DNA of 64,000 bases from the NCBI RefSeq assembly GCF_017995515.1, contig NZ_JAGOIT010000004.1, positions 1 through 64,000 on the forward strand, given 5' to 3'. Shown here piece by piece: positions 35,918-38,005 of the stretch. Within the stretch, counting starts at the first letter, position 1. Each line of letters begins with the position of its first letter. This stretch comes from Propionivibrio sp. Lineage in GTDB: Bacteria; Pseudomonadota; Gammaproteobacteria; Burkholderiales; Rhodocyclaceae. Under the pieces are notes generated by a model. The model was given only the letters and a program-made list of their open reading frames with translations. It had not been told where the DNA came from and did not search any database. The translations under genes were made by a program, and so were the position numbers.

Positions 35918-38005
35918 ATGCTCGACGACATCAAGAAAACCCTCTGGGCCGCGGCCGACAAGCTGCGCGCCAACATGGACGCCGCCGAATACAAGCACCT
36001 TGTCCTCGGCCTGATCTTCCTCAAGTACATCTCCGACACCTTCGCCGCCCGGCAGGCCGAACTCGCCGGCCGCTTCGCCGACCCGGCCGACGAGTACTAC
36101 CTCGACGATCCCGACCTGCTGGCCGACGAACTCGAAGACCGTGACTACTACACCGCCGTCAACGTCTTCTGGGTGCCCGAAGCCGCGCGCTGGGAAACAC
36201 TGCGCGCCGCCGCCAAGCAGCCGGACATCGGCAAGCGCATCGACGACGCGCTCGCCGCCATCGAAGCCGAGAACGCCAGGCTGAAAGGCATCCTCGACAA
36301 ACGCTACGCCCGCGCCCAGCTGCCCGACGGCAAGCTCGGCGAACTCGTCGATCTGATCTCGACCATCGGCTTCGGCGATAACGCCAGTCAGGCCCGCGAC
36401 GTGCTCGGGCAGGTCTATGAATACTTCCTCGGCCAGTTCGCCAGCGCCGAAGGCAAAAAGGGCGGGCAGTTCTACACGCCGGCCTCCATCGTCAAGACGC
36501 TGGTTGCTGTCCTCGCGCCGCACCACGGCAAGGTCTATGACCCCTGCTGCGGCTCAGGCGGCATGTTCGTGCAATCGGAGAAATTCATCGAAGCGCACGG
36601 CGGCAAGCTCGGCGACGTATCGATCTACGGGCAGGAATCGAACCCGACGACGTGGCGCCTCGCGGCGATGAACCTCGCCCTGCGCGGCATCGACTTCAAC
36701 CTCGGACGGGAACCGGCCGACACCTTCACGCGCAACCAGCACCCCGACCTGCGCGCCGACTTCATCCTCGCCAATCCGCCGTTCAACATCAGCGACTGGT
36801 GGCACGGCAGCCTTGAAGGCGACCCGCGCTGGGAGTATGGAACGCCGCCCGCCGGCAACGCCAACTACGCGTGGTTGCAGCACATGCTCTACCACCTCAA
36901 GCCGACCGGCCGTGCCGGCATCGTCCTGGCCAACGGCTCGATGAGTTCCAGCCAGAACAGCGAAGGCGACATCCGGCGGGCGATGGTCGAGGCTGACGTC
37001 GTCGAAGTCATGATCGCGCTCCCCGGCCAGCTCTTCTTCAACACCCAGATTCCCGCCTGCCTGTGGTTCCTCGCCAAGCAGAAACAGACGCGGCAAGGCG
37101 AAGTCCTGTTCATCGATGCGCGCAAACTCGGCAGCATGATCAGCCGCGTGCAGTCCGAACTGACCGACGAGGTGATCGAGCGCATCGCCGGTACGGTGGC
37201 CGCGTGGCGCGCTGTTTCTCCCCCTCTCCCACCGGGAGAGGGGCCAGGGGTGAGGGAGGAAACGCCACAAAAACCCCGGCTTCCTGAAGACCTCAAAGTC
37301 TTCGCCCGAGAACTCCGCCATAAACAAACCGACGCCGAAACCCTTCTCTGGTTCCTGCTGCGGGACCGCCGGCTGGCGGGTGCCAAGTTCCGCCGCCAGC
37401 ACCCCGTGGAACCCTACGTCCTCGACTTCTATTGCTACGAACACAAACTGGCGGTTGAACTCGACGGCGGGCAACACAATGATGCAAAGGGGCGCGCGCA
37501 CGATGAACGCCGCTCTGCCTTCCTGAAAGGCAAGGGGATTCGGGTACTCCGTTTCTGGAATGACGAAGCGCTCAAGCAAACCGAAAGCGTGCTGGAAGCC
37601 GTCTACAGCGCCCTTGTCGAAGCATCGCCCTCACCCCAACCCTCTCCCGGAGGGAGAGGGAGCCGAGAGCCCGCCGCCCTCCTGGAAACAGGTAGCCATG
37701 GTGGAAATGATCAAGGAAACCAGGAACCCTTCTCCCGCCGGGAGAAGGGCTGGGATGAGGGAAGCAGCGCCTACCGTGACATCCCCGGCTACTGCCGCAG
37801 CGTCAGCCTCGCCGAAATCGCCGAACACGGGCATGTGCTGACGCCCGGCCGCTACGTCGGCGCTGAAGAAGTCGAGGACGACGACGTAGCCTTCGCCGAG
37901 AAGATGCAGAAGCTCACCGAAAAGCTCGGAGAACAGATGGCGAAGGGTGCGGAACTCGACGAGTTGATCCGACAGAAACTGGGAGGGCTGGGGTATGAGT
38001 TCTGA
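35918..38005 (+). CDS. hsdM: Type I restriction-modification N6-adenine methylase HsdM carrying an inserted DUF559 nuclease domain
   Basis: 695 residues. HsdM N-domain (MLDDIKKTLWAAADKLRANM, 1-130); methylase with SAM motif I DPCCGSGGMFVQ (about 208) and catalytic NPPFNISDWW (about 288). At residues 433-618 the normal sequence TVAAWRA...YRDIPGYCRSVSL is split by about 186 extra in-frame residues: a peptide from a GC-rich palindrome (PPLPPGEGPGVREE), a complete DUF559 domain (about 454-569, with the PD-(D/E)XK-like YVLDFYCYEHKLAVELDGGQ), and two more palindrome peptides. The tail ends RQKLGGLGYEF. Without the insert, HsdM would be about 509 residues, normal length. Overlaps the next ORF by 11 bases. 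Confidence 0.92.
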   Translation: MLDDIKKTLWAAADKLRANMDAAEYKHLVLGLIFLKYISDTFAARQAELAGRFADPADEYYLDDPDLLADELEDRDYYTAVNVFWVPEAARWETLRAAAKQPDIGKRIDDALAAIEAENARLKGILDKRYARAQLPDGKLGELVDLISTIGFGDNASQARDVLGQVYEYFLGQFASAEGKKGGQFYTPASIVKTLVAVLAPHHGKVYDPCCGSGGMFVQSEKFIEAHGGKLGDVSIYGQESNPTTWRLAAMNLALRGIDFNLGREPADTFTRNQHPDLRADFILANPPFNISDWWHGSLEGDPRWEYGTPPAGNANYAWLQHMLYHLKPTGRAGIVLANGSMSSSQNSEGDIRRAMVEADVVEVMIALPGQLFFNTQIPACLWFLAKQKQTRQGEVLFIDARKLGSMISRVQSELTDEVIERIAGTVAAWRAVSPPLPPGEGPGVREETPQKPRLPEDLKVFARELRHKQTDAETLLWFLLRDRRLAGAKFRRQHPVEPYVLDFYCYEHKLAVELDGGQHNDAKGRAHDERRSAFLKGKGIRVLRFWNDEALKQTESVLEAVYSALVEASPSPQPSPGGRGSREPAALLETGSHGGNDQGNQEPFSRREKGWDEGSSAYRDIPGYCRSVSLAEIAEHGHVLTPGRYVGAEEVEDDDVAFAEKMQKLTEKLGEQMAKGAELDELIRQKLGGLGYEF
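37219..37258. repeat. GC-rich palindromic repeat, cassette copy 1
   Basis: CCCCTCTCCC-ACC-GGGAGAGGGG followed by CCAGGGGTGAGGG. Reads as PPLPPGEGPGVREE in hsdM. Confidence 0.85.
37628..37662. repeat. GC-rich palindromic repeat, cassette copy 2 (inverted)
   Basis: CCCTCACCCCAA then CCCTCTCCCGGAGGGAGAGGG, the reverse orientation of copy 1, so the GGGGTGAGGG tails of both point in toward the DUF559 region. Confidence 0.85.
37728..37763. repeat. GC-rich palindromic repeat, cassette copy 3
   Basis: CCCTTCTCCCGCCGGGAGAAGGG followed by CTGGGATGAGGG, same orientation as copy 1, with compensating changes in the stem (CTTCTCCC/GGGAGAAG). Confidence 0.85.
37983..38005 (+). repeat. 23-bp direct repeat, left copy (hsdM end / DUF1016 start)
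   Basis: Identical over 23 bases to 39071-39093. The core is GGCTGGGGTATGAGTTCTGA. It contains the hsdM stop, a GAGGG ribosome-binding site and the ATG of the DUF1016 gene. Confidence 0.9.

Follow-up and report, generated by a model that had tools for sequence, protein, structure and literature searches.

Many bacterial genomes carry C/G-rich palindromes that have no known mover. The published ideas nearest to the locus described here concern the RAYT enzymes and their REP palindromes (PMC2817692) and the palindromic elements found in frame in protein genes of Rickettsia (PMC10969869, PMC3733652). The DUF559 family has been approached from other directions. E. coli YcjD has been classed as PD-(D/E)XK with profile similarity to Vsr (PMC1189080), one DUF559 gene has been assigned to the EDxHD family (PMC9403480), which a review describes as a metal-dependent mechanism class (PMC3943268), and repeated segments with a transposase and DUF559 have been reported as recombination hotspots in Legionella (PMC12308824). 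In Caulobacter the DNA-damage response that follows removal of a cytosine methylase depends on the DUF559 protein VsrA (CCNA_02930) (PMC12907096), a finding that speaks for action of the family on cellular DNA but not for mobility. No published link of DUF559 to palindromes or to in-frame cassettes was found in the literature searched, from which subscription papers were mostly absent. Here we describe such a cassette, a DUF559 nuclease-like domain bounded by palindromic units and lodged in frame in hsdM, the gene for a type I methylase subunit, in the first 64,000 nucleotides of contig NZ_JAGOIT010000004.1 of Propionivibrio sp. (the window).

It appears reasonably probable, judging from sequence comparisons, that window positions 37220-37761 are a mobile element moved by its own predicted nuclease acting on its inverted palindromic units. 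The observations behind this reading are the anatomy of the cassette, a host site that is empty or variously filled in relatives, the same build in many hosts, inverted ends at most loci, and an excess of palindromes in genomes with the nuclease.

The anatomy bears out most of an earlier, sequence-only reading of this DNA, which had described hsdM as open across about 558 extra bases (37214-37771) encoding a whole DUF559 domain bounded by palindromes, two of them inverted around the nuclease. The 695-residue product matches HsdM_N at residues 5-146, N6_Mtase at 159-433 and DUF559 at 459-566 (E 4.5e-37). Homology to HsdM ends after R431 (37210) and restarts at Y619 (37772), so that those borders were right to within a few bases; because about 7 host-like linker residues (AVS...GSSA), similar to the linker of relatives, remain at the cassette edges, the insert itself is put at about 540 nt and the proposed length was slightly too great. 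Units A and B are 95% complementary and lie in opposite orientation on either side of the DUF559 domain with both G-rich tails pointing at it, and a third unit, C, follows. Computed for single-stranded DNA, the hairpins of the units have energies of -10 to -11.4 kcal/mol, and since their z-scores against shuffled sequences are modest (-0.66, -1.83 and -3.18), hairpin energy was rejected as proof of palindromic units and the case against chance is made by repetition and symmetry. Across the 3.56 Mb host assembly the palindrome, allowing up to 2 mismatches, is found as units A, B and C and at one weaker site. Nor is the fusion a lone assembly error, since a 99% identical protein (P0001, with 11 member sequences, on a 4979-base contig) exists in the protein database.

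Table. Positions in the window of hsdM and the parts of its cassette
Feature	Position	Strand	Basis or detail
hsdM open reading frame, 695 aa, cassette in frame	35918..38005	+	open frame, Pfam matches, empty relatives
Inferred insert, ~540 nt	37220..37761	+	edges of HsdM homology; borders good to a few bases
Palindromic unit A	37221..37256	+	stem-loop 37221-37243; G-rich tail 37244-37256 facing the nuclease
In-frame GTG, candidate separate nuclease start	37250..37252	+	relative P0121 begins with the same MREE peptide
DUF559 (PF04480) nuclease-like domain	37292..37615	+	D/E/D/H motif residues present
Palindromic unit B, inverted copy of A	37628..37660	-	tail 37628-37639; stem-loop 37640-37660
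Palindromic unit C, oriented as A	37727..37761	+	stem-loop 37727-37749; tail 37750-37761

Among PDB structures the best match of the DUF559 domain is 3hrl, an 'Endonuclease-Like Protein' (E 1e-22), and the second is 3r3p, a 'Mobile intron protein' that we take to be I-Bth0305I, the type member of the EDxHD homing endonucleases. Enterotoxin B chains, which appear in the profile search at E 0.04-0.4, were taken as chance matches. The motif residues D, E and D are intact in all 126 DUF559 copies that lie in genes, and the H in 125 of them. The domain is predicted to be a PD-(D/E)XK-type nuclease whose nearest kin are the Vsr-like enzymes and the EDxHD homing endonucleases. In an AlphaFold model of the 695-residue protein (mean pLDDT 68) DUF559 is an alpha/beta domain of its own, flanked by very-low-confidence stretches (436-452 and 570-616) that include the palindrome peptides, and the remainder of the model matches solved HsdM structures. 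On this prediction the units become disordered linkers in the protein and the nuclease a separate extra domain.

The same linker is found in other states in relatives. Eighty HsdM relatives were fetched from genome contigs and 79 could be read across the linker (L079 included; L076 is cut short). None of these 79 has DUF559 at the window's site, in agreement with the claim that HsdM normally runs through this linker without an insert, and the suggested search for empty sites was readily answered: close relatives have about 7 residues between the equivalents of R431 and Y619, and an 87% identical HsdM from the window's own genus (G455) has an ordinary linker. Other relatives hold something else at the same place. 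A single palindromic unit is present in L012, L037 and L068, an inverted unit pair without a nuclease in a Desulfuromonadales record (L069), and a different palindrome of the ATTCC/GGAAT type in L020, L044 and L045, so that units and cassette at one HsdM site can differ in type. Full cassettes at this site were seen in the window, in the near-identical P0001, in nine other database proteins and in L130. In the filled HsdM proteins, palindrome peptides are found where the cassette begins and ends, and the palindrome-free ancestral fusion that had been named as the observation to speak against a cassette did not materialize.

On a tree of 89 HsdM proteins, 11 of them filled, the distribution of filled and not-filled linkers requires at least seven changes, and for this reason the arrangement is not one old HsdM-DUF559 fusion. 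This tree leaves out L076 and L079 and scores the unparsed L065 and L069 as empty although L069 holds a unit pair, and its 'solo' class is defined by a linker of at least 19 residues (8 rows, among which L025 and L036 show no palindrome). The nearest neighbor of the filled P0077 is the empty L017, at a distance of 0.09. On the DUF559 tree the HsdM label requires at least four changes, and the nearest DUF559 to that of P0003, an HsdM, is that of P0002, a MutS. In a Victivallaceae record (L079) HsdM holds a palindrome-bounded DUF559 elsewhere, just before the GEILFIDARN motif. Over 141 residues, among them the palindrome peptides, this cassette shares 68% identity with one in an HsdR (L193) from a genome of the window's phylum, the two records belonging to different phyla. 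On sequence likeness, both pairs look like jumps of the cassette between genes.

Many other genes house the same build. A protein search with the DUF559 part, restricted to lengths 0.55-1.75 times that of the fusion, returned 1073 matches, of which the best 120 were taken up here; of a second set of 2929 proteins the best 120 were likewise covered. For the best 120 of the 1073, host labels were assigned by hand from Pfam matches or, where DUF559 alone matched, from the flanking peptides. Within this set 109 proteins have at least 60 residues on both sides of DUF559, and the hosts are HsdS (40), HsdM (21, of which 10 at the window's site), PF01555-type methylases (20), MetG (14), DUF1156 (6), HsdR (5), Eco57I-type (4), aconitase (2), unknown (2), and one each of MutS, LeuS, polyprenyl synthase, type ISP, MmeI-like and another class I tRNA synthetase (P0069). 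Palindrome-type peptides flank DUF559 on both sides in 105 of the 120, compared with 39 of 892 background windows, by a strict pattern that was written after inspection of the flanking peptides; on visual inspection such peptides are present in most of the 15 proteins that miss the pattern, and P0012 and P0016 lack them on the N side. Of the 140 DUF559 loci taken from whole genomes, 7 could be recognised as lying in frame within a gene, namely the window, PrmC (L088), AsnB (L094), HsdM (L130), MetG (L150), YkuD (L184) and HsdR (L193). Host families number at least 14 in all, so the proposed search for palindrome-flanked DUF559 led well beyond hsdM.

Residence in these genes does not evidently disrupt them. 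DUF559 has host Pfam domains before and after it in MutS, LeuS, PrmC and AsnB, and the YkuD match is split into two segments; in the fusions with aconitase and polyprenyl synthase the matched host domains precede DUF559, with 70 to 73 residues after it. In G463, of the window's genus, a whole MetG of 836 aa bears a cassette, and the cassette-bearing MetG is the only full-length MetG found in that assembly and the only one in G032 (85% and 95% complete, respectively). Within-genus pairs of empty and filled sites are available for AsnB (G080 and G019) and for HsdM (G455 and the window). Of 89 free elements, 33 have the DUF559 frame open over their full length; for the two remaining frames the numbers are 26 and 28. 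Adaptation for read-through is therefore not clear, the DUF559 frame of free copies being not clearly more open than the others, and in-frame residence is best read as what survives selection: the cassette looks like a resident through survivorship. The description of the element as intein-like in effect holds to this extent, for residence without evident disruption; a separate extra domain is predicted by the model, and read-through shows no clear adaptation.

Two of these host genes offered side observations. The PrmC linker holds a DUF559 cassette in G111 and a GTAG...CTAC palindrome in G449 (L265/L271), unlike elements at the same spot. The AsnB of G019 (L094) contains several palindromes in addition to its cassette, and a second AsnB N-terminal copy nearby (L250) runs into another palindrome array.

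Inverted ends were also looked for at the DUF559 loci from whole genomes. At each locus the 250 nt upstream and the reverse-complemented 250 nt downstream were compared by local alignment, and a score of at least 18 was counted as a match; 4 of the 140 loci were dropped because of short flanks. Matching inverted flanks were found at 93 of 136 loci and at none of 134 control pairs taken 400-650 nt away; pairings with the flank of another locus reach this score in 10% of cases. The true partner beats all 40 random partners at 65 of the 136 loci, where 3.3 are expected. Matches in direct orientation occur at 55 of 136, as palindromes allow. In the phylum sample, L122, L153 and L129 have inverted ends of ~70 to 100 nt, longer than the window's units.

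Palindromes are also in excess elsewhere in genomes that encode the nuclease. Among 121 genomes of the window's family, 56 have any DUF559 match and 34 were classed as having DUF559 (best E <=1.3e-30, the next genome being at 1.9e-15). At least four palindromes, of two types, lie beyond the DUF559 loci in 25 of these 34 genomes and in 8 of the other 87 (p 6e-12), a comparison that ignores kinship among genomes. In 17 of 20 scorable genomes the palindrome type beside DUF559 is also the commoner one elsewhere in the genome (p 0.0045), with 14 of the 34 left out because the type was unclear or the counts equal, and 51 of the 140 loci without a type. On the DUF559 tree, with 88 labelled loci, flank type changes twice, while 200 shuffles give a mean of 13 and a minimum of 10. 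One genome of the family sample, G084, has 265 type II palindromes and 11 DUF559 matches, mostly fragments, in a 1.7 Mb assembly.

Movement by the nuclease could be pictured as follows. The predicted nuclease would nick or cut at or near the palindromic units. The pair of units would be copied elsewhere, whether or not it took the nuclease gene along, in a manner similar to that proposed for RAYT and the REPs. Because no consistent target duplication is seen, copying coupled to repair or replication would be likelier than cut-and-paste. Only insertions at flexible spots that stay open would survive, and in this way in-frame copies would persist.

Several points weigh against a self-moved element. 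Movement is inferred and none has been observed, so that the earlier phrase 'in-frame mobile cassette' is upheld for anatomy and distribution, with mobility as its conjectural part. Host labels mostly form clusters on the DUF559 tree, where ~20 labels call for at least 29 changes, and the cassette therefore seems, as far as the tree can tell, to travel mostly with its host gene, jumps between genes being rarer. The match to 3r3p is a weak link (E 0.041, or 0.002 with a profile of 22 relatives), and the authors of the VsrA study propose very-short-patch or mismatch repair for that protein, not mobility (PMC12907096). Inverted flanks fall below the threshold at 43 of 136 loci, and a target duplication of at least 5 nt is present at 22 of 93 loci with 15 expected, which is no consistent signal; there is one possible case of 6 nt, in AsnB. 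To the neglect of kinship in the genome counts must be added that two changes of flank type represent few independent events, and that G040, G044 and G107 have ten or more palindromes and no strong or full-length DUF559. Fine co-variation of nuclease protein and unit was set aside as weak, similarity of the one following that of the other with a rho of 0.12 where the largest of 300 permutations is 0.13. Finally, the window's own genome has zero palindromes counted beyond its DUF559 loci, because of which the window's cassette may have arrived with the restriction genes.

It might instead be that DUF559 serves its hosts as an accessory domain, being a Vsr-like nuclease for repair or restriction that became fused to DNA genes, those of restriction-modification among them, and that the palindromes are debris acquired later. 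Restriction-modification genes do dominate the hosts (best 120 of 1073), and Caulobacter VsrA causes DNA damage when the cytosine methylase is absent (PMC12907096). Against it, the hosts also include MetG, LeuS, PrmC, AsnB, YkuD and aconitase, the domain is missing from close HsdM relatives, and palindrome peptides mark the edges in at least 105 of the 120; we hold this explanation to be unlikely. A single ancestral HsdM-DUF559 fusion lost in most lineages is disfavoured to the point of being very improbable: several filled HsdM proteins do have related DUF559 domains, but the changes counted on the two trees, the empty sites, the second HsdM site in L079 and the MutS neighbor of P0003 are all at odds with it.

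Alternatively, the nuclease may do no more than home, cutting palindromes already present in a linker and entering there through recombination, with some other process spreading the palindromes. The single units and the nuclease-free pair at the HsdM linker could be its targets, and the likeness to an EDxHD homing endonuclease (3r3p), together with the DUF559 gene assigned to that family (PMC9403480), would suit it; yet the surplus of solo palindromes in genomes with DUF559 would go unexplained, units and cassette at one site can differ in type, and we think it quite unlikely. If the units were instead ordinary REPs moved by RAYT, a Y1 transposase, DUF559 would be a passenger. The overall build does resemble a RAYT gene with two inverted REPs (PMC2817692), and the same linkers sometimes hold other REP-like palindromes (GTAG...CTAC in the PrmC of G449, ATTCC/GGAAT in HsdM). 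However, at least four type I palindromes, the only type compared, are found in 17 of 59 genomes with the RAYT domain PF01797 and in 9 of 62 without it (p 0.08), and a GTRG or CGTC tag stands at the outer foot of the palindrome in only 2 of 126 units. With neither association nor tags, RAYT was rejected as the mover, and the passenger explanation is distinctly improbable. A DDE-type insertion sequence or MITE fits poorly too, the fixed target duplication of such elements having no consistent counterpart in the 93 loci.

The neighbors of hsdM may be noted in passing. A DDE transposase fragment (PF13358, E 3.9e-13) lies directly upstream at window positions 35427-35711, and between hsdM and hsdS there is a gene for a YhcG-type PDDEXK nuclease (DUF1016_N and YhcG_C, window 37995-39086).

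Taking the self-moved element as the favored reading, we would further propose, tentatively and short of expecting it to hold, that it represents an unnamed class of autonomous transposable element, in which a Vsr/EDxHD-type nuclease mobilises its own palindromes, seeds nuclease-free ones, settles in frame in essential genes (MetG, LeuS, PrmC) and accounts for many orphan palindromes rich in C/G in proteobacteria, those beside E. coli ycjD perhaps among them. The co-travelling nuclease would name a candidate for the mover that such palindromes lack. If true, a second type of enzyme, unrelated to the Y1 transposases, makes REP-like elements, and mobile DNA has a route by which to add a whole domain to essential proteins without evident harm. 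For annotation, peptides like PLPPGEG and SPGGRG around DUF559 would then point to mobile DNA rather than to a host-protein function.

The cassette shares features with several known systems. Like the Rickettsia palindromic elements it is a palindromic insert in frame in unrelated protein genes (PMC10969869, PMC3733652), but those are ~150 bp long, with no nuclease mentioned in the available descriptions, on which alone the comparison is made, whereas here a whole nuclease domain is included. The EDxHD homing endonucleases (I-Bth0305I) share a weak sequence match through 3r3p (E 0.041; profile 0.002). A similar metal-dependent mechanism class has been described for them (PMC3943268). The cassette differs from them in its palindromic ends, and no intron or intein was seen around it, no dedicated search having been made. 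Caulobacter VsrA is also a DUF559 protein with a DNA-damage phenotype in cells, but a repair role is proposed for it and palindromic ends go unmentioned in the available text (PMC12907096). The ycjD gene of E. coli K-12 encodes DUF559 and has C/G-rich palindromic units just downstream (L281 2829-3072, L286), but is intergenic, between sapF and fabI, a place where it alternates with an efflux operon (PMC12817139). Most of the ycjD stretch queried is present in 3362 of 5426 genomes, others having efflux genes there, and ycjD was rejected as a clean empty/filled pair because the other allele holds that operon. With inteins the cassette shares in-frame residence, with an endonuclease, in a tolerant host gene, and differs in that the DUF559 insert is predicted by the model to stay as an extra domain; no sign of self-splicing was noticed, no search for splicing motifs having been made. 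In RAYT/REP, too, a small nuclease gene lies between two inverted palindromic repeats with extra repeat copies in the genome (PMC2817692); scattered repeats, at least four beyond the locus, accompany 25 of 34 DUF559 genomes and none were counted in the window's own. The enzyme of the cassette is DUF559 and not the Y1 domain PF01797, the GTRG/CGTC tag is confined to 2 of 126 units, and the cassette is often in frame inside genes. Because of the other enzyme and the missing tag the cassette is not a member of RAYT/REP, REP-like though it is in build.

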